Source: Chloroflexota bacterium
GTDB taxonomy: Bacteria; Chloroflexota; Anaerolineae; Ardenticatenales; Ardenticatenaceae
Direction of reading: 5' to 3'
DNA: 13,759 bases
Assembly (NCBI GenBank): GCA_003520455.1
Contig: DOUV01000822.1
Coordinates: 1 to 13,759 of the forward strand
Shown: positions 1 through 13,759 of the stretch, one piece after another
How the letters are laid out: every line of letters starts with the position of its first letter
Position numbering within the stretch: position 1 is the first letter of the stretch
Program-made: the position numbers and the translations under genes
The notes under the pieces: model-generated
What the model saw: only the letters and a program-made list of their open reading frames with translations
The model's database searches: none
Told to the model about the DNA's origin: nothing

Positions 1-3000
1 CTTCGCGCCGCGTTGAGCGCGCCGCGGCGATTATCAGCGCTCGTCGAGGATCTCATGGGGGGCGCTTATGCCACTGATACAATCATATCGCTTGTCCGGC
101 TGGCGGTCCGGGCGCGTCCCGAGTCCGACGCGCTCTCGCTGCTGCCCGCGCGCTATCACATCTTCGCACGGGCGCTTGAGGGCGCCTTCCTCTGCTTGAA
201 CCAGAGCCATCCGGCACATGCCGACGAGGGGCACCCGCGCCTCTTTCTAAACCGCCACGAAGAATGTCCCCACTGTCACGCGCGCGCGCTCGAGTTGGCC
301 ACCTGCCCACGCTGCGGGACGGCCTATCTTGTCGGCCGCGAGGTGAGCGAGCGGACCGCCAACGGAGAGCGCCGCCGCGTTTTGCGCCACCCCACGGCGA
401 CGACCGAGGACCTGACCAAAGGACTCTCCTACTTCGTCCTGACGGCGCAGCTACAGCAGCCTGACGAAGATGAGGCGATTGTCAGCGGCGAGGAGGTCGA
501 TGGTCTCGATACGGAACGGCTGGAACCATTCACGATCTGCTTGGGCTGTGGGGCGATTGAAGGAGCAGGCTGCACCTGCCGTTCCACGACACCCCCGATC
601 GTACTTCAGCGGGTGCTTTCCGATCAGGACCCGCTCCGTCGCTGTGTAGCCTGCGGCGCGCGTAGCCCCAACGGCGTCGTCTATCGTTTCCTGACAGGGC
701 AGGATGCACCGGTCAGCGTGTTGGGTACGTCGCTCTACCAGTTGTTGCCACCGACAGATGATGAAACGGCGGTCCTCCCGGGTGAAGGACGCAAATTGCT
801 GGTTTTTGCCGATAGTCGGCAGGCGGCCGCCTTCTTTGCGCCGTACCTCGAGCGCACCTACCAGCAGATCCTCCGCCGGCGTGTGATTCTCAAGGCGCTG
901 GCCGGTGATGAGGCCGATCACAACGCGCGGGCCGGCCACCTGCGGTTGCAAGATCTGACCGGCCGGGTCCTGGCGGTCGCCGAGCACGCCGGGCTCTTCC
1001 GCGCCGACCAGAGCTACGACGAGCGAACGACGCTGGTCAATCAATGGCTGATGCAGGAATTTATCGCTCTGGATTCGCGCATCGGGCTGGAAGGGCTGGG
1101 GCTGCTCCATTTTCGGCTCGTCCCGCCGCAGAACTGGGCGCCGCCGCAGGCGTTGCTCGAATCGCCCTGGAATTTCACCCGAGAGGAGGTGTCGGCGCTG
1201 TTCGTTGCGATGCTGACGACGCTGCGCCAGCAGGGGGTGGTGACCTTCCCACCGAATGTGGACCCGCGCGACGCCGCCTTCGAGCCGCGCAACGTCGAAC
1301 TGTTCGTACGCGACTATGCCGATGCTACTCAACACGTGTTGGGCTGGCTTCCGAAGCGCGGCGGCAACCGCCGGGTGGACTATCTGGTGCGCGTCCTGCG
1401 CCGCCGTCGGCCCGAGATGGCGCCTCGCGAGGCCGAGCAGACAGCCCAGGAAGTGGTCAAGGGGTTGTGGACCTATTTCACCAACCAACAGTCACCCTGG
1501 CGAGGGCACCTGGCGCCTGAGCAGCGGGCCCGTCAGGGAGTGGTCTATCGTCTGGATCACCGCTTCTGGGAATGGGCGCCCGTCGCAGAGACGGGGACTC
1601 CCGTGTACCGCTGCAATCGCTGCTTCAACGTCACCTACACCAACCTGGAGGGCGTCTGCCCCACGTATGGCTGCGACGGCGATCTGGAGCGCGTGGACGG
1701 CGCGGCCGGCGCCTGGGTCAGCAACCACTATCGCCACCTCTACCAGACCCTGGCGCCCATCCAGTTGAGTGCCGAGGAGCACACCGCCCAGTGGATGCCG
1801 AAGGTCGCCAGCGAGATCCAGAGTCGCTTTATTGACGGTCGAATCAACGTCCTCAGTTGCTCGACCACCTTCGAGTTGGGTGTGGACGTGGGCTCGCTTC
1901 AGGCCGTTCTGATGCGCAACGTGCCGCCGACGACGGCCAACTACGTACAGCGCGCCGGCCGTGCCGGCCGGCGAACCGACTCGGCGGCGCTTGTTCTGAC
2001 CTACGCCCAGCGGCGCTCACACGACCTGACCCACTTCAAGGAGCCTGAGCGGATGGTCTCCGGGCATGTGCGGCCGCCGGTGGTTGTCGTCCGCAACGAG
2101 AAGATCGTGCGCCGCCATGTACACTCCGTCCTGCTGGCGGCCTTCTTTCGTTGGGCCAGGGCACGTCGCGAGCGGGAGTTCCGGACCGTCGGTACCTTCT
2201 TCGCGCCTGAGGACGCGCTCTCGGGGCCTCACCTGTTGGAAGAATATCTGCGCGAGCCGCTTGAGCCGCTCCAGGAGGCGCTCCGGCGCATCGTGCCTCC
2301 CGAGCTACACCACGAGCTGGGTTTGGATGACTGGGGGTGGCTCCCGCAGCTCACCAATGGAGAGGGGACGGGCATCCTGGATCTGGCCGTGAGAGAGGTG
2401 ACCGGCGATCTTGACCTCTACGCGCAGTTAGAGCGTGAAGCCGCCTCCGCCCGGCGCTACAAACAGGCCGATCACTTCCACCGGGTGGCCCAAACGGTGC
2501 GCAACCGCGACCTGCTCGGGTTCCTGGGGAGCCGCAACGTGCTTCCGAAGTACGGCTTCCCCACCGACGTTGTGCCCCTCCGAACCAACCATATTCCCCT
2601 CCGTGAGGCCGACGAGGTCGATCTCCAGCGGGATCTGCGCGTGGCAATCTCCGAGTACGCGCCCGGGAGCGAAATCGTCGCCGCCAAGCGTATTTGGGTC
2701 GGGGGCGGGCTCTACATCCTTTCGGGTCGTGACTGGCAGACATGGTACTATGCTGTGTGCCCCAATTGCGGCCGCTTTCACCGCTCGCTCAAGCCGCTCG
2801 ATCCGCACTGCCAGGTCTGCAATGCCAATCTGTTCGGCTGGCCCCGTCACTATGGTCAGTATGTGAGACCTGAGTTCGGGTTCGTGGCGGGCCGGGACAC
2901 GCGCGACACCGGCGAGCGGCCGCCGCATCGCCTCTACGCCTCGCGGGTCGCGTTTTCCAATTACGCCGACGAGGGTCAGGAAGGGCCGAACGAGCCGCAG

Positions 3001-3651
3001 TTCATTTCTGCTCTTTCCGGCCCCACCGTCCAGGTAATGACGCGCTATTCGCGCTTTGGAAAATTGGCCCTGGTCAATCCGGGCATGGACAACAACGGCT
3101 TCACGATCTGCACCTCCTGCGGCTGGGCCGAGCCCGTGACACCCACGGCTACCGGCCGGCGCACGCGCCGCAAGGCGCAGCACGACAACCCCCGCACCGG
3201 CCAGCCGTGCAAGGGCCGGACGGAGAACTGGCATCTCGGGCACGAGTTCATCACCGACGTACTCGAACTCCGCTTCACGGGTGCGCTGCCGCCGGCGAAT
3301 GAGTACGCCGTCTGGCTCTCCACACTGTATGCAATCCTCGAAGGAACAAGCGAGACGTTGAGCATCCCGCGCGATGACCTCGATGGGACCCTCTACCGCT
3401 ACTCCACGGACTACCCACCGGCCCTGGTGCTCTACGACAACGTACCGGGCGGCGCCGGCCACGTGCGCCGCCTCAGCGAGGGCAAGGTGTTGCCCGTGAT
3501 TCTGCGCGCGGCCTGGGACCGTGTCGCACGCTGCGAGTGCGGAGAGGAGACCAGTTGCTATGAATGCCTGCGCAACTTCTACAACCAGTTTTACCACGAT
3601 CAACTGAAGCGCGGGCTGGCGCGCGACTTCTTGAGCCGAGTCTTACAGTAG
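1..3651 (+). CDS. DUF1998-type superfamily 2 helicase, 5'-truncated by the window edge
   Basis: The reading frame is open from base 1, so the TTG at base 13 is not a real start. At least 1216 residues are visible (numbered from base 1). The second helicase lobe is seen: VFADSRQ at 268-274, motif V around STTFELGVDVG (621-631) and motif VI QRAGRAGRR (650-658). The Walker A/DEAD lobe must lie upstream. Cysteine groups that look like zinc ribbons sit at 89/92/102/105, 180/183/215/218, 538/541/553/558 and 920/923/937/940. The C-terminus has the DUF1998 (MrfA/DrmB-like) pattern YDNVPGGAGH followed by C1178, C1180, C1186 and C1189. By family knowledge this is an ATP-dependent DNA translocase or helicase acting in defence or repair; in DISARM the helicase lobe and DUF1998 lie in separate proteins (DrmA, DrmB). 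It is followed 13 bases later by the NERD-helicase gene, so the two are probably co-transcribed. The family call is firm; the role in defence is inferred. Confidence 0.88.
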   Translation, partial: LRAALSAPRRLSALVEDLMGGAYATDTIISLVRLAVRARPESDALSLLPARYHIFARALEGAFLCLNQSHPAHADEGHPRLFLNRHEECPHCHARALELATCPRCGTAYLVGREVSERTANGERRRVLRHPTATTEDLTKGLSYFVLTAQLQQPDEDEAIVSGEEVDGLDTERLEPFTICLGCGAIEGAGCTCRSTTPPIVLQRVLSDQDPLRRCVACGARSPNGVVYRFLTGQDAPVSVLGTSLYQLLPPTDDETAVLPGEGRKLLVFADSRQAAAFFAPYLERTYQQILRRRVILKALAGDEADHNARAGHLRLQDLTGRVLAVAEHAGLFRADQSYDERTTLVNQWLMQEFIALDSRIGLEGLGLLHFRLVPPQNWAPPQALLESPWNFTREEVSALFVAMLTTLRQQGVVTFPPNVDPRDAAFEPRNVELFVRDYADATQHVLGWLPKRGGNRRVDYLVRVLRRRRPEMAPREAEQTAQEVVKGLWTYFTNQQSPWRGHLAPEQRARQGVVYRLDHRFWEWAPVAETGTPVYRCNRCFNVTYTNLEGVCPTYGCDGDLERVDGAAGAWVSNHYRHLYQTLAPIQLSAEEHTAQWMPKVASEIQSRFIDGRINVLSCSTTFELGVDVGSLQAVLMRNVPPTTANYVQRAGRAGRRTDSAALVLTYAQRRSHDLTHFKEPERMVSGHVRPPVVVVRNEKIVRRHVHSVLLAAFFRWARARREREFRTVGTFFAPEDALSGPHLLEEYLREPLEPLQEALRRIVPPELHHELGLDDWGWLPQLTNGEGTGILDLAVREVTGDLDLYAQLEREAASARRYKQADHFHRVAQTVRNRDLLGFLGSRNVLPKYGFPTDVVPLRTNHIPLREADEVDLQRDLRVAISEYAPGSEIVAAKRIWVGGGLYILSGRDWQTWYYAVCPNCGRFHRSLKPLDPHCQVCNANLFGWPRHYGQYVRPEFGFVAGRDTRDTGERPPHRLYASRVAFSNYADEGQEGPNEPQFISALSGPTVQVMTRYSRFGKLALVNPGMDNNGFTICTSCGWAEPVTPTATGRRTRRKAQHDNPRTGQPCKGRTENWHLGHEFITDVLELRFTGALPPANEYAVWLSTLYAILEGTSETLSIPRDDLDGTLYRYSTDYPPALVLYDNVPGGAGHVRRLSEGKVLPVILRAAWDRVARCECGEETSCYECLRNFYNQFYHDQLKRGLARDFLSRVLQ

Positions 3652-3664
3652 GGGAGGGGATTCC

Positions 3665-5332
3665 ATGGCTCGCATGTATCCCAACCGGCTCCGCGTGGAG
3701 ACAAAGAGCAACGCCGAGCGCCTGCTCTACGAGCGCTTTCAGCGGGAGCTCCCCGGCGAGTACACCGTCTTCCACAGCGTCGCCTGGCTGGCCCGCGATA
3801 CGCGTGGGGGCGCCCGCGACGGCGAGGCCGACTTCATCGTGGCCCACCCCGAGCGAGGCATCCTGATCGTAGAGGTCAAGGGCGGCAACATCCGCTACGA
3901 CGGGGCGAGCGATCAATGGTACAGCAACCAGCACGAGATCAAAGACCCCTTCGAGCAGGCCAAAGACAACAAGTACAGCCTGCTCGAGAAGCTCAAAGAG
4001 CTGCCGTACTGGCGTTCTCGCTGGGTGACCGTGGGCCATGCCGTCGCCTTCCCCGACGTGCCTGTCAAGCAGGATTTGCGGCTCGACGCCCCCGCCACCA
4101 TCATCCTCGACTGCGATGACCTTGACCGGCTTCGGGCCTGGGTCGAGGGGGTGCTGGCCTACTGGCAGGCCGAGGATGGGCGTGCGGGCGAGCCCGGCCG
4201 CGATGGGGTGCGCGAGCTAGTCGCGCTCCTCAGCCCCTCCTGGGAGCTGCGCGCACCGCTGGCGGTCCAGTTTGCCCGCGAGGAGCAGGATTTCATCCGC
4301 CTGACCGAGCAGCAGTTTCGCCTGCTGGATTTCCTCAACTTCCAGCGGCGCGCCGCCATCTCCGGCTGCGCCGGATCGGGCAAGACGACGATGGCGACGG
4401 AGCAGGCCCGCCGGCTGGCCGCGCAGGGGTTCCGCGTCTTACTCACCTGTTTCAACCGCCACCTGGCCGACTATCTCCAGAGCGACGAAACCCTGCCGGC
4501 GGGCGTGGAGGTCCGCCACTTTCACGGTCTCTGCGTGCGCATGGTGCGCCAGGCTGGCATGGACGAGCGTTTGGGGGGTGGCTGGAAGACGCAGGAGTGG
4601 TACACTCAGACCCTGCCGGAGTTGCTGATGGGGGCAGCCGGCCGCATTGGCCCCCAGTACGACGCCATCGTCGTGGACGAGGGGCAGGATTTCCTGGCCG
4701 ACTGGTGGGTGCCGCTGCAGTGTTTGCTTGAGGACCCTGACCGCGGTATCTTCTACATCTTCTATGACGACAATCAAAACCTCTTTCAGACAGCATTCGC
4801 CCTGCCACCGGGTCTCCAGCGCTTTCCGCTGACCCACAACTGCCGCAACACGCAGCACATCCACCGGACCTTCATGCCCTTCTCGCGTTCCGAGGTGGCG
4901 CCCCAGGTGATCGGGCCGGAGGGGCGGCCGGCCGAGGTGACCTACTACGGGAGCGAGCACGCGCTGAAACAGGCACTGCGCCGGGCGCTGCACCGCCTGT
5001 GCGTGGAGGAGGAGGTCGATACCGAAGATATCGTCGTGCTGACGCCGCGCGCCCGCGACAAGAGTCTGCTCTGGCGCTGGGGCTTCGTGGGCAACTTCCG
5101 GCTGACCGATCGCTGGCCGCCCGGCTCGAACGAGGTCTACTGCACCACGCCCTACCTGTTCAAGGGCCTGGAAAGCCCGGTCGTCATCCTCGTCGAGGTC
5201 TACCCGTCCAGCCATCAGGACCTGGAGACGTTGCTCTACGTCGGCTGCTCGCGCGCCCGAAACCACCTGATCGTGCTTGCCGAAGATGGGCTGCCAGAGG
5301 GTATTCGCGTGCGGCTGCCGACGAGCGTCTGA
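3665..5332 (+). CDS. NERD nuclease domain fused to a UvrD-like superfamily 1 helicase
   Basis: This 555-residue protein starts at ATG 3665, with a strong Shine-Dalgarno (GGAGGGG, 3653-3659) six bases upstream. The N-terminal 120 or so residues are a NERD domain: GEADF at 53-57 and ILIVEVKGG near 66-74 give the D56...E70-x-K72 arrangement of PD-(D/E)xK nucleases, so the active site looks intact. The helicase part has Walker A GCAGSGKTT (234-242, K240), Walker B VVDEGQD (336-342), a YDDNQNLF motif, an HNCRNT motif, a KGLE segment and YVGCSRAR (525-532), typical of the UvrD_C_2 end. It probably unwinds and cleaves DNA in the cytoplasm, and is the most plausible nuclease in this set. A 104-base gap separates it from the methyltransferase. 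NERD-helicases also occur as solitary genes, so membership in the system rests on gene order. Confidence 0.9.
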   Translation: MARMYPNRLRVETKSNAERLLYERFQRELPGEYTVFHSVAWLARDTRGGARDGEADFIVAHPERGILIVEVKGGNIRYDGASDQWYSNQHEIKDPFEQAKDNKYSLLEKLKELPYWRSRWVTVGHAVAFPDVPVKQDLRLDAPATIILDCDDLDRLRAWVEGVLAYWQAEDGRAGEPGRDGVRELVALLSPSWELRAPLAVQFAREEQDFIRLTEQQFRLLDFLNFQRRAAISGCAGSGKTTMATEQARRLAAQGFRVLLTCFNRHLADYLQSDETLPAGVEVRHFHGLCVRMVRQAGMDERLGGGWKTQEWYTQTLPELLMGAAGRIGPQYDAIVVDEGQDFLADWWVPLQCLLEDPDRGIFYIFYDDNQNLFQTAFALPPGLQRFPLTHNCRNTQHIHRTFMPFSRSEVAPQVIGPEGRPAEVTYYGSEHALKQALRRALHRLCVEEEVDTEDIVVLTPRARDKSLLWRWGFVGNFRLTDRWPPGSNEVYCTTPYLFKGLESPVVILVEVYPSSHQDLETLLYVGCSRARNHLIVLAEDGLPEGIRVRLPTSV

Positions 5333-5352
5333 CGAGGGGGAACCCTGAGAGC

Positions 5353-5363
5353 GCGTTTAACGC
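5353..5363. promoter_or_regulatory. 11-base dyad in the gap before the methyltransferase gene
   Basis: GCGTTTAACGC is a perfect inverted repeat of 5 bases around one central base. It lies in the 104-base gap between the NERD-helicase and methyltransferase genes, about 75 bases before the methyltransferase start. The loop is too short for a hairpin, so a protein-binding site is the only obvious role. No clear -35/-10 pair was found in this gap. A chance match is quite possible. Confidence 0.2.
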
Positions 5364-5422
5364 TACCGCCCGGAATGGCGAGGACAGGCCCCAACGTTCG
5401 TTGATCTTTCAGCTACTTCGTT

Positions 5423-5427
5423 AGGAG
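5423..5427 (+). promoter_or_regulatory. Shine-Dalgarno deciding the methyltransferase start
   Basis: AGGAG lies nine bases before ATG 5437. A second ATG at 5432 is only four bases away and opens a different frame, which runs as a 165-codon shadow. The ATG at 5437 opens the 913-codon frame with recognisable motifs, and its spacing is better. Confidence 0.6.
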
Positions 5428-5436
5428 AAGAATGGT

Positions 5437-8178
5437 ATGCCCACCCAACCCCGCCTCATCGCCGAAGAGCCCGCTGCCTACGACGCATCGCACGACGTGG
5501 TGGAGCGCGCCGCCTCCCGCGAGCGCCTGCGCGAGAAACTGCAAGACCCCGAATTCCGCCAGATCGAGGGCTTCCCCATCGGTGATGACGAGGCCATCCT
5601 GGCGCTCTCGGACCCGCCCTATTACACCGCCTGCCCCAATCCCTTCTTGCCGGAGATCATCGCGCGCTGGCAGGAGGAGCGCCGCGCCCTGCGGGCAGAG
5701 CTGGGGCTGCCCGACGATCTTTTCGCGAAATTTCGCGAAAGCGATTCCGCCGCGAACGGCTACAGCCGCGAGCCCTTCGCCGCCGACGTCTCCGAGGGCA
5801 AGAACGACCCGATCTACAACGCCCACTCCTACCACACCAAAGTGCCGCACAAGGCCATCATGCGCTACATCCTCCACTACACTGACCCAGGCGACATCGT
5901 CTTCGACGGCTTCTGCGGCACCGGGATGACCGGCGTGGCGGCGCAGTTGTGCGGGGACAAAAAGGCGGTGGAGTCGCTGGGCTACCGCGTGGATGGGCAG
6001 GGCATCGTCTACGACGGCGATCAGCCGATCTCGCGCCTGGGCGACCGCAAGGCGGTGCTGGTGGACCTGTCGCCGGCCGCCACCTTCATCGCCTACAACT
6101 ACAACACGCCGGTGGATGTGGCAGCCTTCGAGCGCGAGGCGAAGCGCATCTTGCGCGAGGTAGAGGAGGAGTGTGGGTGGATGTACGAGACGTGGCATCC
6201 GCATTGCGACGATCCGAGGCGGGTGAAGGGGAAGATCAATTATACGGTGTGGAGTGATGTGTTTGTATGCCTGAATTGCGCCGGCGAGTTAGTGTTTTGG
6301 GATGTGGCAATTGACCATGCAACTGGCGGGGTTCAGGATTCCTTCCTGTGTCCTCACTGTGGGGCTGAGCAAAGCAAGCGCGGTTTAGATCGTGTTGTGG
6401 AAACAGTTTTTGACCGCGCGCTAGGTGAGCTATCTAAGCGAGCAAAACAGGCTCCAGCGTTGATTAACTGCACAGTAGGGAAGAATCGTAGGGGTAAACG
6501 GCCCGACAGGCATGACCTGGAGCTTATTGAGAAGATTCAGGGGCAGGAGATCCCGTATCTATTTCCTCACGACCGAATAGACCGCGACATTGACATGTGG
6601 TATGAGAGGGATTATCGGTCGCTCGGACTGTATTCCCTCGACGGTTTCTTTACACAGAGAAATCTGTATACATTGGCTTTGACATGGCAATTGATCAATG
6701 AAGCACCAGAGAGAGTACGAAGACAGTTGCAGTTCGTATTTTCTGGAACTCTACAAATCACGTCTCGGATGAGTTCATTCCGGTATGACTCGCGTAATCC
6801 TAACAACACAGCTGGTGGAATCCTAAAAGGCGCTCTTTATATTCCATCTCTGTCCAAGGAGGGCAGAGTGGCTGACCTACTCGATAGAAGGCTCGGATTC
6901 ATATCTCGGATGTTAAGAGCTCGAGCCTACACAATCCCTGGAGCGATTGTTATTTCCACAGCTTCGTCTTCAAGATCAGATATACCAGACAATAGTATTG
7001 ATTATATTTTTACAGATCCACCTTTTGGCAGCAATATTATCTACTCAGACTTAAGTCTTCCTTGGGAGTCCTGGCTTGGGATTACAACAGATACAGAAAG
7101 TGAAGCTGTCGTTCATCGCCGCAAGAAAGTGAGGCCGTCAACACTACAGACCTATCAATCAATCATGGTTGAGTGTTTCCAAGATTTCTACCGGATTTTA
7201 CGCTCTGGACGTTGGTTGACTGTTGAATTCCATAACACCCAAAACGCTGTGTGGAATGCGATTCAAGAGGCAATTGCAAGAGCGGGATTTGTCATTGCCG
7301 ATGTGCGAACATTAGACAAGGGATCAGGCACCTTTAAGCAAGTCAACACTACTGCTGCTGTCAAGCAGGATCTTATCATCACTGCCTACAAACCCGCGGT
7401 TGTCTTCGAGAACCGCTTCCAGCCGCAGGCAGGCTCTGAAGCCGGCGCGTGGACTTTCATTGACGAACATCTGCGTCATCTGCCACTGCCTCAACTCAGA
7501 GACAGTCGCCTGGAAATGCTAGCCGAGCGCCAGGCCTACCTGCTCTTCGACCGCATGGTGGCCTTCCACATCCAGCGCGGCCTCACGGTGCCGCTCAGCG
7601 CCGCCGAGTTCTACGCCGGCCTCAAGGAGCGATACAGCGAGCGCGATGGCATGTACTTCTTGCCACCGCAGGCCGCCGAGTACGATAAACTGCGGCTCCA
7701 GGCCCAAGAGGTCCAGCAGTTCCCCCTGATCGTTACCGACGAGAAGACGGCCATCCTCTGGCTGCGGCAGCAGTTGGAGGCCCAGCCCCAGACCTTCCAG
7801 GAGATTCAGCCGAAGTTCCTCCGGGAACTGCACCAGCTTCGCCACGAGAAGCTGGCCGAGCTGCGCGACCTGCTGGAGGAGAGCTTCCTGGAGGATGCGG
7901 CCGGCCGCTGGTATGTGCCCGACCCCAACCGCGCCCAGGACCTCGAGAAGCTGCGCGAGAGGGCGCTGCTGCGCGAGTTCGCCACCTACGTCGAGGGGCG
8001 CGGCCGGCTCAAGGTCTTCCGCAGCGAGGCAGTGCGCGCCGGCTTCGGCGATGCCTGGCGCCGCCGCGACTACGCTACCATCGTCAAGGTTGCCGAGCGG
8101 CTGCCGGAGCGGGTGCTGCAGGAAGACCAGGACCTGTTGATGTATTACGATAACGCGCTGAATCGGGTGGAACGGTAA
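5437..8178 (+). CDS. Adenine-type DNA methyltransferase with zinc ribbon, BREX-3 PglX-like candidate
   Basis: This 913-residue protein has a SAM-binding motif I, DGFCGTG (157-163), and two possible catalytic motif IV sequences: DPPYYT (59-64) and DPPFGS (527-532). Cysteines 278/281 and 305/308 form a probable zinc ribbon. The C-terminal 250 or so residues are charged and helix-rich and end in a segment around KVAERLPERVLQEDQDLLMYYDNA that I associate with methyltransferases found beside BREX-3-type PglZ, from memory only. The likely reaction is SAM-dependent N6-adenine methylation marking host DNA as self. It sits downstream of two helicase genes; pglZ follows after a minus-strand cassette. 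Bases of about 6240-7390 (residues 268-652) are much lower in G+C than both ends, suggesting recombination. A DUF1156-type methylase (the type 3 BREX PglXI group) is the nearest family I can name. The methyltransferase call is firm; the BREX subtype is inferred. Confidence 0.88.
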   Translation: MPTQPRLIAEEPAAYDASHDVVERAASRERLREKLQDPEFRQIEGFPIGDDEAILALSDPPYYTACPNPFLPEIIARWQEERRALRAELGLPDDLFAKFRESDSAANGYSREPFAADVSEGKNDPIYNAHSYHTKVPHKAIMRYILHYTDPGDIVFDGFCGTGMTGVAAQLCGDKKAVESLGYRVDGQGIVYDGDQPISRLGDRKAVLVDLSPAATFIAYNYNTPVDVAAFEREAKRILREVEEECGWMYETWHPHCDDPRRVKGKINYTVWSDVFVCLNCAGELVFWDVAIDHATGGVQDSFLCPHCGAEQSKRGLDRVVETVFDRALGELSKRAKQAPALINCTVGKNRRGKRPDRHDLELIEKIQGQEIPYLFPHDRIDRDIDMWYERDYRSLGLYSLDGFFTQRNLYTLALTWQLINEAPERVRRQLQFVFSGTLQITSRMSSFRYDSRNPNNTAGGILKGALYIPSLSKEGRVADLLDRRLGFISRMLRARAYTIPGAIVISTASSSRSDIPDNSIDYIFTDPPFGSNIIYSDLSLPWESWLGITTDTESEAVVHRRKKVRPSTLQTYQSIMVECFQDFYRILRSGRWLTVEFHNTQNAVWNAIQEAIARAGFVIADVRTLDKGSGTFKQVNTTAAVKQDLIITAYKPAVVFENRFQPQAGSEAGAWTFIDEHLRHLPLPQLRDSRLEMLAERQAYLLFDRMVAFHIQRGLTVPLSAAEFYAGLKERYSERDGMYFLPPQAAEYDKLRLQAQEVQQFPLIVTDEKTAILWLRQQLEAQPQTFQEIQPKFLRELHQLRHEKLAELRDLLEESFLEDAAGRWYVPDPNRAQDLEKLRERALLREFATYVEGRGRLKVFRSEAVRAGFGDAWRRRDYATIVKVAERLPERVLQEDQDLLMYYDNALNRVER
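5721..5740. repeat. 20-base perfect palindrome made of two 10-base palindromes
   Basis: TTTCGCGAAATTTCGCGAAA is its own reverse complement, and consists of TTTCGCGAAA (itself a palindrome) twice in tandem. It lies inside the methyltransferase gene, encoding residues around FAKFRE. An AT-flanked CGCG core duplicated end to end is conspicuous in DNA this rich in G+C. It could be a recognition or regulator site, a recent 10-base duplication, or chance. The palindrome is seen directly; any function is speculation. Confidence 0.55.
6240..7390. other. Low-G+C block inside the methyltransferase gene
   Basis: Composition drops sharply inside one uninterrupted reading frame. Counted by hand: bases 5641-5700 have 44 of 60 G+C and 7921-7980 have 43 of 60, but 6661-6720 have 24 of 60 and 6961-7020 only 19 of 60. 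Arginine codons shift from CGC-type to AGA/AGG and CGA/CGT types in the block. It covers the zinc ribbon, the second catalytic-type motif (DPPFG) and what may be the target-recognition region. The edges are gradual, so the limits are good to perhaps 50 bases. Confidence 0.75.
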
Positions 8179-8182
8179 GGCG

Positions 8183-8214
8183 CGAACCACCATGAGCTTC
8201 CAGACGGGGGTTCG
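8183..8214. terminator. Weak hairpin between convergent genes, possible two-way terminator
   Basis: CGAACC (8183-8188) can pair with GGTTCG (8209-8214) around a 20-base loop; two more C-G pairs can form beyond one mismatch. It fills the short gap between the methyltransferase stop and the stop of the minus-strand HEPN gene, where a bidirectional terminator would be expected. There is no T-run on either side, so intrinsic termination would be inefficient. Confidence 0.3.
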
Positions 8215-8595
8215 TTAGAGAGTGTGTAGCGCTCCGATGATATTACGTGCAACCGCAACCGACGACTGTGCGAGGGCGGCAAGTCCAGTCACGAGTGAAT
8301 CGTCGTAATCTGCCCGGTTACGATTATCTCGCAGACGTTCGAGGTCAGTGCTGATCTTCCGTCGGACACGGTCACCGCGTGCACGGAAGTGGTTCCTGAG
8401 TAGCCGATGGTCCTCAGGTGAACCGGTTGGTACGAAGCCTTCTTTGTCGCGGGCGATCGTCCGGGCACCGCAAAAAGCAGCACAGTAGGCACGGCTAACG
8501 GCTGAACGAAGAGCAGCCTCTTCCGGTCCCGGTGTATTCGGTGTCCGTGACAGTGCGTCTGCCAGGGTAAGGAAATCGACCCAGTTGAAGCTCAT
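8215..8595 (-). CDS. HEPN-like protein, second gene of a two-gene cassette
   Basis: This 126-residue, mostly helical protein has features of HEPN domains: SRAYCAAF at 34-41, where many HEPN proteins read SRAYYAAF, and LERLRDNRNRADYDD at 85-99, an R...ADY variant of the HEPN catalytic region. The histidine of the classic Rx4-6H RNase motif is not seen there, so RNase activity is uncertain. Its ATG overlaps the stop of the upstream gene by four bases (ATGA, 8592-8595), implying translational coupling. It runs against the surrounding genes, converging on the methyltransferase. One counted line (8281-8340) is 50% G+C, lower than the flanking genes. HEPN proteins are commonly toxin or sensor components of toxin-antitoxin and abortive-infection modules; that role here is inferred from arrangement. 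Confidence 0.68.
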   Translation of the reverse strand: MSFNWVDFLTLADALSRTPNTPGPEEAALRSAVSRAYCAAFCGARTIARDKEGFVPTGSPEDHRLLRNHFRARGDRVRRKISTDLERLRDNRNRADYDDSLVTGLAALAQSSVAVARNIIGALHTL

Positions 8596-9002
8596 ACAAA
8601 TTGGAGATTGAAGTTGAAACGGCCGCCAACTCGATCCAGTTGATCCAGGAACCAGTCCTCGTCAAGTGCGTCGAGCCGGGCCAGCGCTTCATCCACCGGC
8701 AGTGGAGAGAGAATGTAGGCAAAAAGCTTCTCTGAGTTTTCTACTTCGGGATCACGAACGACCTCGAGCGCCGCCTGGACGCCTGGACCGAAATGAGACT
8801 GGAGTTGTGCGTACGCGTCCAAGAGGAAGTCGATAAGTTCCGGTTGAGTATTCAAGAAACGTCGCACTTCCGCAGGTGGCCGAAGAATATAGACGTCTTC
8901 GAGGCCACGCAATTGGGCTTCTCGCCCTGCGATAGTCGAACTTCCAGGCCCGTGTTGCCAACGCATATTCCATCCTACCAGGCATACGTAAGGCTTGCTC
9001 AT
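8592..9002 (-). CDS. Unknown protein, 136 residues, partner of the HEPN-like gene
   Basis: I do not recognise a named domain. From about residue 40 the sequence resembles an uncharacterised family whose members, as I recall them, read 'ExxxFLxxxPELIDxLLxAYxxLxxxFG', then 'LEVVxDPE', then a C-terminal 'DEDWFLDQL..GRFNFNLQFV'. Acidic residues are frequent in the last half (DPEVENSE at 84-91, LDALDEDW at 110-117). The first 30 or so residues look less protein-like, so a downstream start (TTG codon 31 or Met13) is possible. The ATG at 9002 is supported by a strong promoter just upstream, which would leave only a short leader with little Shine-Dalgarno match. It overlaps the HEPN-like gene by four bases. 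A partner or antitoxin role is inferred from order and overlap only. Confidence 0.6.
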   Translation of the reverse strand: MSKPYVCLVGWNMRWQHGPGSSTIAGREAQLRGLEDVYILRPPAEVRRFLNTQPELIDFLLDAYAQLQSHFGPGVQAALEVVRDPEVENSEKLFAYILSPLPVDEALARLDALDEDWFLDQLDRVGGRFNFNLQFV

Positions 9003-9022
9003 CGTCCGAGGGTCTCATCCCG

Positions 9023-9050
9023 ATTGTACCTGGGTTCCGGGCTGAGTCAA
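9023..9050 (-). promoter_or_regulatory. Sigma-70-type promoter of the minus-strand cassette
   Basis: On the minus strand, TTGACT (9050-9045) and TACAAT (9028-9023) are separated by 16 bases; each differs from the -35 and -10 consensus at one position. Transcription would begin near 9016, about 14 bases before the ATG at 9002. It lies in the 66-base gap shared with the divergent pglZ gene, so the cassette has its own transcription and might interfere with expression of pglZ. Confidence 0.65.
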
Positions 9051-9068
9051 GATCGAAGATTCCCAGAT

Positions 9069-11060
9069 ATGAATTCTTGGCGTGACGTAGTTCTTCAATA
9101 CTTTCATCACCGCACTGACCGTCTGACCGTGGTCGCCGATCCGGACGGGCTGCTGCAAGAGGAGCAGGTGCTGGCGGCCATCCGCGCCCGCGGCTTCGAC
9201 ATTCTCCCCTTCGAGGACCCGGTTGCCTTCCGCTATGCCTACGAATCGCTCTATCGCGAGCGGTGGGACGCGGAGGGAGAGCCCTCGCCCGCGCTGCTGG
9301 TGCGGGTGGACGGCCCGGACCTGCGTCGCCTGCCCTACGACCTGCTCCAACGCGGGCGCCAGGTGCGGCTCTCCTTGCACGACCTCCTCCCGAGACTGAG
9401 CTATCCGGTGGTGCGGGACTTCTTTCGCACTGCCCCCGAGTTGCTCGATCACTTGATTGCGGCCGAGAATCTCAGGGAGGGAGCCCGCCTTGGCGACGGC
9501 CGGACGCTGGCTTTCATCGCCCGCCACGTCTACAGCCTCGATCCCGCGATCGTTCTCACCCTGAACGACCTGGTCGAGCGCCTTTTGATCGTTCACTACA
9601 ACGGCTGGCCGCTCCCGGAGCGACTTCAGCGTTGGCTGGCGGAGCAATTTCAAGCCACGACACCCTTCGAGGGGTTGCCAGTCGCGCGGTGGCTCGCCGA
9701 CCGCAACGCGTTCTTTACATTCATCGAGGCCCAGTGGCAGGCGCACCTTGAAGGACAGGGGCTCACGCTGGCGGAAGCGCGGCCGGCCTACGCTGCCGGC
9801 CCCGCACAAGTGAGCTTCGCACTCCCCGGGATTCGAGCCACGGTAGACACCCTCTTCCTCGAAGGCAAGCTGCGCCCCGTGCGGGTGATCGCCGAGCGCC
9901 CGCCGGTGGACTGGACGGGCGTGGGCGTCGCGGTTGACGAGGACGCCCACCGTCAGCAGCGCCTCCAGCGGCTGTTGGCAGCCGTCGAGAAACAACTCCA
10001 TGATGCGCGTGACAGCAACCACCGCCTCTGGTTGGACCTGGCGCGAATCTGGGCCGAGGCCCTCGTGCTAGCGAACCGCACCGCTCTTGCCGTTCCCCTG
10101 CGGGAGCAGTTCGATCTCCTCCGCGAGCGGCTGACCGTCGAGTTCGGCGCCTGGTTGCGAGCCCGCTACAACACACTCCATACGTTACCCTATCTGCCCG
10201 CGCCCATTGTGGGGCATCATGGCGTGCATTTCCTCGCCCACCGGCTCCATCAACGCACCCCGAGGCTGGCCATGCTCGTGCTTGATGGGCTTGCTCTGGA
10301 TCAATGGCAGATCATCCGCGAGGTCTGGGACTCTCAGGCGCGACCCTGGCGGTACAACGAACAGGCGCTCTTCGCCGTCCTCCCCACGATCACGCCGATT
10401 GCCCGGCAGGCGCTCTTCGCCGGCCAACTGCCCTTCTACTTCGCCGATACATGGCAGCGTACCGACGCCGACGAACGTCACTGGCAGCGTTTCTGGGCGG
10501 ATCAAGGATTGTATCCCAGTGCAGTTGCCTGGCGGCTGGGACTGGAAGACGCAGAGAGCCTGGTGGCTGATACGCGCCTCCGCGCGCTGGGCCTGGTCGT
10601 CAGCACTGTGGATGAGATGCTGCACGGAACAGCCCAGGGAACGGCCGAGCTCCACGAGCGGGTGCGCTGGTGGGCGCAGCAGGAAATGCTTTCGCAGCTC
10701 ATCGACCGCCTGCTGGCCACCGGCTTCGAGGTCTGGCTTACCAGCGACCACGGCAACGTCGCCGCCGAGGGAATTGGCCGGCCGCGTGAGGGTGTGCTCG
10801 TCGAGCGGCGCGGTACGCGAGTACGCTTCTACTCGGACCCTGCATTCCTGGAGCGGGCTCGGGCTGATCTGCCCGAGGCTGTCGCCTGGACCCCCGGCGG
10901 TCTGCCGCCCGGCGTTCAGACGCTCTTTGCCCCAGGTCGTCTCGCCTTCGCTGCCGCCGGCCAGGGCCTGATCACCCACGGTGGCCTGGCGCTCGAGGAG
11001 GTTGTCGTACCATGGGTGCATATTGATAAGAAGAATTCCGAGGGACAACAGATCGGATGA
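9069..11060 (+). CDS. pglZ: PglZ-family protein, BREX type 3-like
   Basis: I chose ATG 9069 (663 residues). The frame stays open upstream to 8793, but that stretch lies over the minus-strand cassette, and the start MNSWRDVVLQYF fits the beginnings of BREX-3 PglZ proteins. The N-terminus has VADPDGLLQEE and FDILPFEDPVAFRYAYES (about 18-52), which I recognise from BREX-3 PglZ. The C-terminal alkaline-phosphatase-fold domain shows VLDGLALDQW with metal-ligand candidate D406, the nucleophile region LPTITPIARQALFAG (T440, T442), TVDEMLHG with D515, and TSDHGN with D560 and H561, so the metal site looks complete. PglZ is a core protein of BREX/Pgl phage exclusion, acting in the cytoplasm with the PglX methyltransferase; its exact reaction is not fully settled. 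Only a weak Shine-Dalgarno precedes the start. The next gene begins four bases after the stop. Confidence 0.88.
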   Translation: MNSWRDVVLQYFHHRTDRLTVVADPDGLLQEEQVLAAIRARGFDILPFEDPVAFRYAYESLYRERWDAEGEPSPALLVRVDGPDLRRLPYDLLQRGRQVRLSLHDLLPRLSYPVVRDFFRTAPELLDHLIAAENLREGARLGDGRTLAFIARHVYSLDPAIVLTLNDLVERLLIVHYNGWPLPERLQRWLAEQFQATTPFEGLPVARWLADRNAFFTFIEAQWQAHLEGQGLTLAEARPAYAAGPAQVSFALPGIRATVDTLFLEGKLRPVRVIAERPPVDWTGVGVAVDEDAHRQQRLQRLLAAVEKQLHDARDSNHRLWLDLARIWAEALVLANRTALAVPLREQFDLLRERLTVEFGAWLRARYNTLHTLPYLPAPIVGHHGVHFLAHRLHQRTPRLAMLVLDGLALDQWQIIREVWDSQARPWRYNEQALFAVLPTITPIARQALFAGQLPFYFADTWQRTDADERHWQRFWADQGLYPSAVAWRLGLEDAESLVADTRLRALGLVVSTVDEMLHGTAQGTAELHERVRWWAQQEMLSQLIDRLLATGFEVWLTSDHGNVAAEGIGRPREGVLVERRGTRVRFYSDPAFLERARADLPEAVAWTPGGLPPGVQTLFAPGRLAFAAAGQGLITHGGLALEEVVVPWVHIDKKNSEGQQIG

Positions 11061-11064
11061 CACG

Positions 11065-11805
11065 ATGACTGAAGATCGCATTGGTTTTGACCGCACGATT
11101 CGACTTCGCTGGCTGGACCAGGCGGCACTCTTGGCCCGCGAGCTGCGGGACAATGAAGCCCTGCGCGAGGCTCTCTTCGAGTGTCTCACTCACGACGTGC
11201 GTGGTGAGGAGAGTCGGCGAAAGACCGTAACAGTCCTTGCCCGCATCTGGTGGCGGGTCCCGGAGGAGCACATCCTGTTCCGTGAGGAAGCTTTCGCCAT
11301 GGTCGCCCAGGAAACGCCAGGGGCCCGCCTGGCGCTTCACTGGGGGATGGCGCTTCTGGCCTATCCCCTTTTTCGTGATGTCACAGCGATCATCGGGCGT
11401 CTGCTCCGGCTGCAAGGTGCGTTTACTTTGGCACAGGTGAGTCGCCGGATCAGCGCCGACTGGGGAAATCGCACCACGCTCAAATATGCCGTCCCGCGGA
11501 TTCTACGTTCGCTCTCCGATTGGGAGATCGTTGAGCCGACAAAGGAGGTGGGTGGCTATGAGCCCTGTCCACCGATCCTTTCCCCGCGTGTTGGACCCGC
11601 GCTTTGGCTCCTCGAGGCCTCCTTGCGGGCGCGAGAGACAGACGTTCCGGTGAGTGATCTCCTTCGCTCGCCGGAGTTGTTCCCATTTGCGCTCCCTGTT
11701 TCGCCCGGCGATCTCTTGCGCTCTGGGCGGTTCCAGGTAGACCAACAAGGGCAAGACCTCCTGATGGTTCAGAAGGTGTCCACAGCTAACCACGGATGGC
11801 GATGA
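11065..11805 (+). CDS. Unknown 246-residue protein with probable winged-helix segment, coupled to pglZ
   Basis: I do not recognise a named family. ATG 11065 follows the pglZ stop by four bases; a longer start at 10981 inside pglZ is less likely, because its extra 28 residues look like an out-of-frame reading of pglZ. The protein is helical. Residues 108-158 (AIIGRLLRLQGAFTLAQVSR to SDWEIVE) look like a winged helix: helix, short turn, basic recognition-like helix with WGNRTTLKYAV, then a likely wing. SRRKTVTVLARIWW (50-63) is another basic helix. The last few residues (about 238-246) may be a non-conserved tail. In BREX type 3 the gene after pglZ is brxA, a DNA-binding protein; this one does not look like BrxA (DUF1819) to me, but may do a comparable job. 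A DNA-binding accessory role is inferred. Confidence 0.7.
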   Translation: MTEDRIGFDRTIRLRWLDQAALLARELRDNEALREALFECLTHDVRGEESRRKTVTVLARIWWRVPEEHILFREEAFAMVAQETPGARLALHWGMALLAYPLFRDVTAIIGRLLRLQGAFTLAQVSRRISADWGNRTTLKYAVPRILRSLSDWEIVEPTKEVGGYEPCPPILSPRVGPALWLLEASLRARETDVPVSDLLRSPELFPFALPVSPGDLLRSGRFQVDQQGQDLLMVQKVSTANHGWR

Positions 11806-11995
11806 GGTCCCGGATTTTCCCAGATTGATGTTGGAACTCCGGCACCGCCCGCAACTTGCAAAACGACCTCCGTCAGATCCTTGGGGATCTCGGCATTGCC
11901 GAAAGCGTGAGAATCAACGTGAGTGAGTCCGAGAATAGCCAGCGCGAACCGTCCACCGCTCTCCGAGACACGTAGCCATCGAGAAGCGTACAACC
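11806..11995. other. 190-base gap with possible gene remnant
   Basis: I see no clear promoter or terminator here. On the plus strand, about 11829-11971 is open and reads like protein, with NLQNDLRQILGDLGIAESVR in the middle and then a stop, but it has no convincing start and is preceded by an in-frame TGA at 11826. On the minus strand a 77-codon frame (11769-12002) also covers the gap and runs into the genes on both sides. Neither matches a family I know. A decayed gene fragment left by insertion of the downstream gene is one explanation; an untranslated spacer is another. Confidence 0.35.
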
Positions 11996-13759
11996 ATGCC
12001 AATCATCGATCGCATTGAATCCGCCCGGCGAGAACTCCTCGATCTCACCACCCGCTCCCGCCTCCTGCACACGCCCCGGGGCGCCAGCGTCAAGATCGTA
12101 GAGGTCGTGGACGAGCGTTCGGAGCAGATCTATCGCATCCTCGTTCAAGAAGGGAAGCGCATGAGCTTCCTGCCCCAACCCGAGTCAGAGGGCGGGCTGG
12201 CGGCCGGCGACTCGGCCGTCCAGATGGAGCTCCTGGCGCCCGAAGACGATGGCGTGGAGGAGGAGCGTGTTGCCGGCCGGCATATCGACACCCGGCTCCA
12301 GGCCAAACTCACGTCAGCCAGGCTCCAGAAGCGGTTGCTCCAGCTCTACTATGACGCGCGCAACTTTGAGGAGGAGCAGGGCGTCAACATCCTCTACCTG
12401 GCCCTGGGCTTCCTCAAGTGGTTCGAGGCGCCTTCATCCGACAGACCACGATACGCGCCCCTGATCCTCGTGCCGGTCGTCCTGGACCGGCGGAGCGCCC
12501 AATCCCGGTTCCAGCTCCGCTACTCGGAAGAGGAGCTGTCCACGAACCTCTCGCTCCAGGCCAAGCTGAAACTGGACTTCGGGATCGAGCTCCCAGAACT
12601 GCCGGATGCCGAGGAATTGTCCCCATCCCCCTACTACGATGCGGTGGCGAAGGTTGTATCCGCGCAGCCCCGTTGGGAGCTCCTTCGCGATGACATCGTT
12701 CTCGGCTTCTTCTCGTTCGCCAAGTTCCTCATGTACCGTGACCTCGATCCCCGGAGCTGGCCGCAGCGTCGGAAGCTCGAGGAACACCCGATGATCCACA
12801 GCCTTTTGGGTGACGGCTTCAACCACGATCCGTCCCCCTTCAGTGAAGACACGAACGTGGACGAGGTCTTGGAGCCCGGGGACATGGTCCATGTTGTGGA
12901 CGCGGACAGCTCCCAGACGCTGGCCATCGAGGAGGTGCGCCGGGGCCGGAGCCTCGTGATCCAGGGACCACCGGGCACCGGCAAGTCGCAGACCATCGCG
13001 AACCTCATCGCGATGGCCGTCCGGGAGGGGAAGACGGTCCTCTTCATGGCCGAGAAGATGGCCGCTCTCGAGGTCGTGCAGCGCCGCCTGGATCGGATCG
13101 GGCTTGCGGTAATGTGTTTGGCGCTCCACAGCCACAAGGCCCGGAAGAAAGCTGTCCTGGAGGAGTTGGAGCGGACTCTGAACCTCGGGCGACCCCAGGT
13201 GGACGGCATCGAGACGCTCACGGACCAGCTCCGCGAGCGGCGGGAGCAGCTCAACGCCCACGTTCGACGCCTCCACACACCGCTGGAGGCGTCGGGGTTC
13301 ACGCCCTACCAAATCGCGGGGCACCTGGTTCGCCTCTCAGCCAAAGGGGTCCCCGCTCAAGACTACAAGCTCGACCCGGCCCGCACGTGGAGTCGCGAGG
13401 ACTTGAGGGAGCGCGAGACCCAGATTCAGAGGGTGGCGCAGCACATCGAGGAGATGGGGACACCCGGGCAACACCCGTGGCGCGGCGCCCGCCTGGACGT
13501 AGTCTTGCCCCAGGACGTGGCGCGGCTGGAGCCGAGGATCCACGAGCTTCTCACTCGGCTTGCAGAATGGCGGGCCGGTGTATTGGACCTCGGGCGGTGC
13601 CTGGATGTTCCGGCGGAAACCTGGAAGGAGGTGGCGGCTCTCCTCCGCCTTGCCGACGCCATCGCGCAGTCCCCCTCCATGGATCGCGCCAGCATCGCCA
13701 GCCCTGCATGGGAGGCGCGGCGCGAGACGATCTCCGCGCTCGTCGAGGCGCTGCGGCGG
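11996..13759 (+). CDS. DUF4011-type superfamily 1 helicase, 3' end outside the window
   Basis: The frame is open from ATG 11996 to the right edge (588 residues). The N-terminus, IDRIESARRELLDLTTRSRLL then YLALGFLKWFE (about 4-142), is the DUF4011 pattern that opens a family of large helicases. Walker A is GPPGTGKSQT (324-333, K330) in the AAA_11/UPF1-like arrangement, preceded by VDADSSQTLAIEE and followed by KTVLFMAEKMAALEVV. Relatives usually run well over 1300 residues, with the second helicase lobe and a Vsr/DUF559-like nuclease or DUF3320 end, so the effector domain would be beyond the edge. Only a poor Shine-Dalgarno (GAGAAG) is seen. DUF4011-helicase-Vsr proteins are known as single-gene phage defence (Hhe). 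It may be part of this system or an independent neighbour; the 190-base gap favours separate expression. Confidence 0.85.
   Translation, partial: MPIIDRIESARRELLDLTTRSRLLHTPRGASVKIVEVVDERSEQIYRILVQEGKRMSFLPQPESEGGLAAGDSAVQMELLAPEDDGVEEERVAGRHIDTRLQAKLTSARLQKRLLQLYYDARNFEEEQGVNILYLALGFLKWFEAPSSDRPRYAPLILVPVVLDRRSAQSRFQLRYSEEELSTNLSLQAKLKLDFGIELPELPDAEELSPSPYYDAVAKVVSAQPRWELLRDDIVLGFFSFAKFLMYRDLDPRSWPQRRKLEEHPMIHSLLGDGFNHDPSPFSEDTNVDEVLEPGDMVHVVDADSSQTLAIEEVRRGRSLVIQGPPGTGKSQTIANLIAMAVREGKTVLFMAEKMAALEVVQRRLDRIGLAVMCLALHSHKARKKAVLEELERTLNLGRPQVDGIETLTDQLRERREQLNAHVRRLHTPLEASGFTPYQIAGHLVRLSAKGVPAQDYKLDPARTWSREDLRERETQIQRVAQHIEEMGTPGQHPWRGARLDVVLPQDVARLEPRIHELLTRLAEWRAGVLDLGRCLDVPAETWKEVAALLRLADAIAQSPSMDRASIASPAWEARRETISALVEALRR

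Follow-up and report, generated by a model that had tools for sequence, protein, structure and literature searches.

A Chloroflexota type 3 BREX operon in which a Druantia III-like helicase pair and a NERD nuclease probably take the place of BrxHII

Introduction

Type 3 bacteriophage exclusion (BREX) systems consist of BrxF, the DUF6079 protein BrxC, the DNA methyltransferase PglXI, the helicase BrxHII, PglZ and BrxA. The means by which BREX stops phage are still debated; PglZ tends to be regarded as the signature protein of these systems and as their probable effector. The stretch of DNA analysed here (13,759 bases of contig DOUV01000822.1 from a Chloroflexota bacterium, hereafter the window) covers most of a type 3 BREX operon, namely its right-hand portion, with the left end cut inside a helicase gene. 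A helicase of the Druantia DruE lineage and a NERD nuclease-helicase stand ahead of PglXI in this operon, and BrxHII is not found between PglXI and PglZ. According to the main text of a 2026 survey, BrxHII is present in 77% of type 3 BREX systems (PMC12839542).

Other described defence systems share parts with this locus. Druantia type III pairs DruH, described as having helical ends around Ig-like domains and reported to sense tail or baseplate proteins, with the helicase DruE, which bears C-terminal PLD nuclease domains in Escherichia coli. TALON, as described in a survey of YprA helicases (PMC12458937), combines an ARMADA-like YprA homologue with a NERD endonuclease and is largely confined to Chloroflexota. 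ARMADA itself contains YprA, BrxHII-like and PglX-like proteins, and the defence island system associated with restriction-modification (DISARM) contains DrmA.

Gene content of the window

Both ends of the window fall within genes. The operon is represented by five genes with open frames, in which all sought motifs are present:
1..3651, plus strand: SF2 (superfamily 2) helicase of the DruE/YprA lineage, C-terminal 1216 residues (Helicase_C and MZB/DUF1998), its 5' part lying beyond the left edge
3665..5332, plus strand: NERD nuclease-UvrD helicase
5437..8178, plus strand: PglXI/BrxXI, type 3 BREX DNA methyltransferase
~9069..11060, plus strand: BREX-3 PglZ, its start placed from the profile extent and an ATG at 9069
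11065..11805, plus strand: BrxA

An initial annotation, made from the sequence alone, had proposed a methyltransferase and a PglZ of the BREX-3 kind, and both were confirmed by profile scores. PglXI reached 1206 bits with the PADLOC PglX|PglXI model and 60.6 bits with Pfam N6_N4_Mtase, and contains DPP(Y/F) twice and DGFCGTG; PglZ scored 608.6 bits with NF033449 (cut-off 250) and 648 bits with PADLOC PglZ. The annotated NERD nuclease-helicase was likewise upheld (Pfam NERD, 49.7 bits; UvrD_C_2, 34.9 bits; PADLOC RTasNERD-Hel, 309 bits), with the motifs EVK, Walker A GCAGSGKT and DEGQD. The fifth protein, taken for an unknown winged-helix protein in a stretch thought to lack BrxA, is BrxA itself (PADLOC, 217.9 bits over residues 5-237), and its gene gave no match in the Pfam or NCBIfam scans.

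The helicase carries the expected DUF1998 region (Pfam MZB, 56 bits; Helicase_C, 40 bits) and QRAGRAGR as motif VI. Its proposed DISARM type did not hold: the PADLOC DruE1 model was matched at 434 bits (profile positions 494-1674), as against 33 bits for DrmA in PADLOC and 31 bits, under a cut-off of 999, in NCBIfam. A DUF1998-type helicase near a methyltransferase is a likeness to DISARM, but no DrmB or DrmC match was found among the window proteins and the methyltransferase is PglXI. DISARM membership was rejected on these scores; the helicase belongs to the DruE lineage and is paired, in the relatives described below, with a DruH-like protein.

A complete relative carries BrxF and BrxC upstream

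GTDB genome contigs were scanned with the helicase (alignment A1), and the best 80 of 369 loci were analysed; the closest named relatives of the window helicase among them are Chloroflexota. One complete relative was found, locus L007 in a metagenome-assembled genome (MAG) of Anaerolineae, in which all genes lie on a single strand and neighbours either overlap by at most 16 bases or stand at most 39 bases apart:
902-1384: BrxF
1389-5093: BrxC (DUF6079)
5087-8728: protein X
8756-13615: DruE-like helicase (DruE1, 684 bits)
13625-15310: NERD-UvrD
15350-18112: PglXI
18128-19843: AbiEi-AbiEii
19828-21810: PglZ
21816-22574: BrxA

A second locus (L006, Thermoflexus, genome G002) has BrxF, BrxC, X, the helicase and PglXI in this order before its contig ends. 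The initial annotation had recorded BrxC and BrxF as absent. This is correct for the window; as a loss from the operon it is unsupported, since both genes lie upstream of the helicase in L007 and L006, and judging from these upstream genes BrxC and BrxF have probably not been lost from the window's operon. By the same gene order, an X gene would be expected just left of the window.

BrxHII and the proposed helicase swap

BrxHII was searched for by tblastn with two plasmid BrxHII sequences. It was not found in operons combining the DruE-like helicase with intact BREX-3 genes; the window has none between PglXI and PglZ, and the complete L007 locus none at all. BrxHII-like genes occur near the helicase in four loci (L048, where PglXI and PglZ are broken, L052, L064 and L193), none of which has intact BREX-3 genes. 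SNF2 relatives of BrxHII were detected in 5 of 10 genomes searched, on contigs apart from the operons. The plasmid loci L082-L084 are canonical BREX-3, with BrxHII between PglXI and PglZ, and an Enterococcus faecium plasmid locus (L085) has no helicase at this position.

A phylogenetic tree of 31 PglXI proteins contained one group of 15, with an ultrafast bootstrap of 100, that included no BrxHII locus. The group comprises the window, L007/L164, the arrangement NERD-BrxC-PglXI described below and several loci without a detected helicase. Support is weak at the deeper nodes, contig ends truncate some of the members, and L167 and L001 were dropped as too short; the grouping is taken as a hint only.

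Recurrence of the association

Two overlapping genome samples (400 Chloroflexota and 396 Anaerolineae) were searched, with at most two candidates scored per genome. Relatives of PglXI (E<=1e-60) were present in 12 of the Chloroflexota and 32 of the Anaerolineae genomes, and the helicase (E<=1e-150) in 20 of the Anaerolineae. Seven of these 20 genomes have the helicase within or together with BREX-3 genes, and the gene order differs among them. G001 and G002 have the orders of L007 and L006, respectively; G088 and G345 have NERD-BrxC-PglXI-X-helicase-BrxA; and G744 has X-helicase-PglZ-BrxA, with BrxC and a piece of PglXI on another contig. The count takes in G732, in which the order is spread over three contigs (helicase-NERD, NERD-PglXI and PglXI-AbiE-PglZ-BrxA), and G007, in which only helicase-PglZ-BrxA was seen, and leaves out G008, whose PglXI fragment lies 7.6 kb downstream, and G467, which has a BrxC-like remnant of 285 bp. 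Among the 80 loci, a BREX-3 core match on the helicase strand was found in 12, of which 8 were substantial; the other four are L001, L004 (a remnant), and L048 and L067 (broken genes).

For metagenomes, the 120 best entries each for the helicase (from 828), BrxC (from 5997) and PglZ (from 597) were taken and the longest contigs carrying them compared; equal length was read as indicating the same contig. Twelve helicase entries matched a BrxC and 12 a PglZ, three of them both, which amounts to 21 of the best 120. The chance level, obtained by shifting lengths by 1 to 100 bases, had means of 0.37 (BrxC) and 0.28 (PglZ) and a maximum of 3. Two of the helicases paired with BrxC in this way are 71% and 70% identical to that of the window, so that an upstream BrxC is likely in the window's own genome as well. 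Among viral contigs, a single helicase was found, a distant one (L081).

In the window and in L007, the genes present, their order and their intactness are direct observations, as is the recurrence of the association, and both gene content and recurrence are well supported. The five-gene order on which the initial annotation laid weight fared less well than the module, which recurs: the exact order helicase-NERD-PglXI-PglZ-BrxA is complete in one other locus only, L007, where the AbiE pair is inserted between PglXI and PglZ, and is found piecewise on the three G732 contigs.

An arrangement without PglZ

The order NERD-BrxC-PglXI-X-helicase-BrxA also occurs in G004 and G005 and partly in L027 and L044; in one such locus (L135) the junctions range from -19 to +18 bases. 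PglZ was not found in the neighbourhood of these loci. A profile search detected PglZ in none of five genomes with this arrangement (G004, G005, G006, G088 and G345), mostly drafts, and in 6 of 6 other genomes; in G345, however, a single contig accounts for 3.97 Mb of the total of about 4.0 Mb. BrxF was likewise found in none of the five and in both controls (G001 and G002), and BrxC was present in all five (in G006 on another contig).

Protein X, the DruE-like helicase and the supply of a nuclease

X is a protein of ~1200 residues. In all 9 close relatives whose sequence extends upstream of the helicase, its gene immediately precedes that of the helicase. The structural model of one member has a helical N-terminus, a tandem Ig-like core and a helical region, a domain plan by which X may be considered DruH-like. 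X had no Pfam match at E<=0.1, and its identification as PglZ or as a TPR-CSD protein found no support. A first X profile (A2) matched mainly sigma factors among solved structures because some X members carry a fused sigma-70 domain; with the sigma-bearing members taken out (profile A3, 27 of 34 rows), nothing credible was matched. DruH was not among the PDB fold matches listed for the X model, which excludes nothing. A plasmid search with an actinobacterial X gave no match, and X was not found by tblastn in three distant helicase genomes (G435, G520 and G375).

Of 68 upstream neighbours, all X-family proteins, 7 have the sigma-70 domain fused to their C-terminus (L029, L010, L011, L012, L013, L014 and L016). 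It is complete in L029 (gene at 4590-8615, residues about 1040-1341), with regions 1.2 to 4. It is odd for a DruH-like protein to bring a sigma factor of its own; the MZA system likewise has a sigma-70 protein.

Aligned to chain 9tu7_Y (2108 residues), which from its length is presumably E. coli DruE, the helicase profile reaches no further than residue 1720. The present helicases are similar in length to the M. smegmatis form of DruE (1667 residues) and, by this alignment, appear to lack the C-terminal PLD nucleases of E. coli DruE. NERD-UvrD, which is encoded next to the helicase (window, L007 and L182) or upstream of BrxC (G004, G005, G088 and G345), could supply the cut in place of these nucleases. 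It gave no match to solved structures.

Comparison with described systems

The locus shares PglXI, PglZ and BrxA with type 3 BREX, to which L007 and L006 add an upstream BrxF and BrxC, and differs in that BrxHII is missing, that a DruE-lineage helicase and NERD-UvrD precede PglXI, that a DruH-like protein precedes these in the relatives, and that one arrangement has neither PglZ nor BrxF. Its likeness to Druantia type III (DruH-DruE) lies in the match of the helicase to DruE models and in the upstream partner of the relatives, ~1200 residues long and, by model, with the plan described for DruH. Unlike in Druantia III, this partner has no PADLOC match, the helicase appears to be without the PLD-bearing C-terminal extension of E. 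coli DruE, the pair is set among BREX-3 genes, and NERD-UvrD is added. TALON has in common with it a YprA-family helicase adjoining a NERD protein in Chloroflexota, but L007 contains no TPR-CSD or TATA-binding protein (TBP) gene, BREX-3 genes are present and NERD is fused to a UvrD helicase. A YprA-family helicase with a PglX-type methyltransferase recalls ARMADA, from which the locus differs by the lack of a BrxHII-like gene, by a methyltransferase that is PglXI, and by the presence of PglZ and BrxA.

BREX-3 itself is known; what seems to be new is a type 3 BREX with a Druantia III-like helicase module and a NERD nuclease probably in the place of BrxHII. The main text of the 2026 BREX survey (PMC12839542) contains no occurrence of Druantia, DUF1998, DruE or YprA, and the accessible text of the YprA survey (PMC12458937) none of PglZ or BrxC. 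No description of BREX-3 with a Druantia-like helicase was found in the open full-text papers searched; an unnamed entry in supplementary tables or subscription papers is possible.

Interpretation and alternatives

Taken together, the evidence points, by a modest measure, to a BREX-3 operon in which BrxHII has been replaced by a Druantia III-like pair (X and a DruE-lineage helicase) and NERD-UvrD. The initial annotation had suggested a BREX variant in which two helicases, one with a nuclease, replace both the usual helicase and the ATPase. Its first half is supported, as BrxHII was not found by tblastn and the association recurs; its second half is not supported, as L007 and L006 carry BrxC and BrxF just upstream. 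The annotation's own alternative, an ordinary BREX-3 with extra genes, is borne out in the upstream brxC and brxF of the relatives and fails otherwise, given the lack of BrxHII and the repeated occurrence of this gene set.

The mechanism, the roles of the parts and their functional integration may be envisaged as follows. PglXI would methylate host DNA, and BrxC, BrxF and BrxA would serve in recognition and loading. An infection product would be sensed by X, the DruH-like protein with Ig domains, and the DruE-like helicase would next engage phage replication intermediates. NERD-UvrD would cleave DNA in trans, alongside PglZ, because the helicase ends before the C-terminal region that bears the PLD nucleases in E. 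coli DruE. The HEPN-like pair of the window (see below) would be an optional accessory, as AbiE would be in the relatives. If this is true, DruH-type sensing of phage proteins would be tied to a defence based on methylation, and what have been described as two separate systems may here be combined in one. The loci form a natural series (BrxHII; no helicase; a Druantia-like helicase with PglZ; a Druantia-like helicase without PglZ) along which the sensing, modifying and destroying parts could be told apart, and they provide an annotation rule for loci now scored as partial BREX or partial Druantia.

Several observations weigh against the replacement of BrxHII by an integrated module. The window begins inside the operon, and neither BrxF and BrxC nor X is seen in it; L006 has no NERD gene between the helicase and PglXI; and no BrxC match was found in the G732 and G007 drafts, nor a PglXI match in the latter. 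X has no DruH match in PADLOC and was likened to DruH through the published description of the DruH plan. In 11 of the 20 helicase-bearing genomes no BREX-3 gene was present in the stretch seen, which in some was a short contig (G484 and G637); the X-helicase pair therefore also exists alone. The parts are linked through gene context, and BxaP, an extra gene in type 3 BREX loci, is reported to protect independently (PMC10799925).

A bolder form of the same reading, which we offer tentatively and rate as falling short of probable, is that a single Chloroflexota machine has arisen by fusion of BREX and Druantia III as modular halves. Self-marking and licensing would fall to the BREX part, the sensing of phage proteins and unwinding to the DruH/DruE-like pair, and cutting to NERD. 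The module would have displaced PglZ in the NERD-BrxC-PglXI-X-helicase-BrxA lineage, giving a PglZ-less BREX.

The main alternative, in our estimate an unlikely one, is that two independent systems share one defence island, namely a helicase-less BREX-3 (BrxF-BrxC-PglXI-PglZ-BrxA) and a self-sufficient, uncoupled X-helicase(-NERD) cargo. Helicase-less BREX-3 is known here (L085, L156, L157 and L172), some X-helicase pairs have no BREX-3 genes in the part of their surroundings covered (for example L028 and L008), X and the helicase are intact beside broken BREX-3 genes in the Clostridia-type loci L048 and L067, and BxaP is a precedent for a gene within such loci that acts alone. However, in L007 (junctions of -16 to +39 bases) and L135 the genes of one half are interspersed with those of the other and adjoin or overlap them, identical partners are met again in differing orders, BrxHII is absent wherever the X-helicase pair sits with intact BREX-3 genes, and the arrangement without PglZ and BrxF leaves no complete BREX-3 to act independently.

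That the helicase-NERD part is TALON or a close relative, and not Druantia III, merged with or beside BREX-3, is very improbable: the composition and host range of TALON fit and the 2023 PADLOC is not known to contain TALON models, so that a best match to DruE is compatible with it, but the TPR-cold-shock fusion and TATA-binding proteins that TALON typically adds are not among the L007 genes from BrxF to BrxA, all of which are accounted for, and X matches no Pfam family.

Accessory genes and variant loci

The proposed replacement of BrxHII concerns the genes ahead of PglXI; the interval between PglXI and PglZ and the right-hand end of the window hold further genes:
8215..8595, minus strand: weakly HEPN-like 126-residue protein (Pfam HEPN, 17.8 bits, E 0.0037, under the cut-off of 22)
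8592..9002, minus strand: 136-residue protein, overlapping the HEPN-like gene, with no Pfam, PADLOC or NCBIfam match
11996..13759, cut by the right edge: DUF4011 protein, kin of the anti-phage proteins ProA, Hhe and PDC-S37

The two small minus-strand genes break up the operon and had been overlooked in the five-gene order of the initial annotation, which is otherwise correct for the window. The HEPN-like gene would be an accessory and may form a toxin-antitoxin-like pair with its neighbour. Loci differ in the accessory pair inserted between PglXI and PglZ, which is HEPN-like and on the opposite strand in the window and AbiEi-AbiEii in L007, L164 and L167. The DUF4011 gene begins 190 bases past BrxA and is probably a separate neighbouring defence gene.

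Other loci depart further from this organization. L201 (771-8337; G732:C67) has six genes between NERD and PglXI, including an Hsp70-like gene (98 bits) and a weak metallo-beta-lactamase-fold match. In L193 (1292-19148; G284:C8), X and the helicase are followed by a BrxHII-like helicase on the same strand and, further on, by a gene for a 926-residue protein that resembles, by eye, a DUF1156-type methyltransferase; this locus is perhaps an ARMADA-like relative with a DruH-like partner. Two Bacillota MAG loci (L048, 1-3544, and L067, 971-2083) have broken BREX-3 genes directly upstream of an intact X-helicase pair, consisting of PglZ pieces with PglXI and BrxHII or with BrxA. A 285-base BrxC-like remnant lies directly upstream of X-helicase in L004 (4757-5041), which suggests that the BREX genes decayed there and the X-helicase pair was kept.

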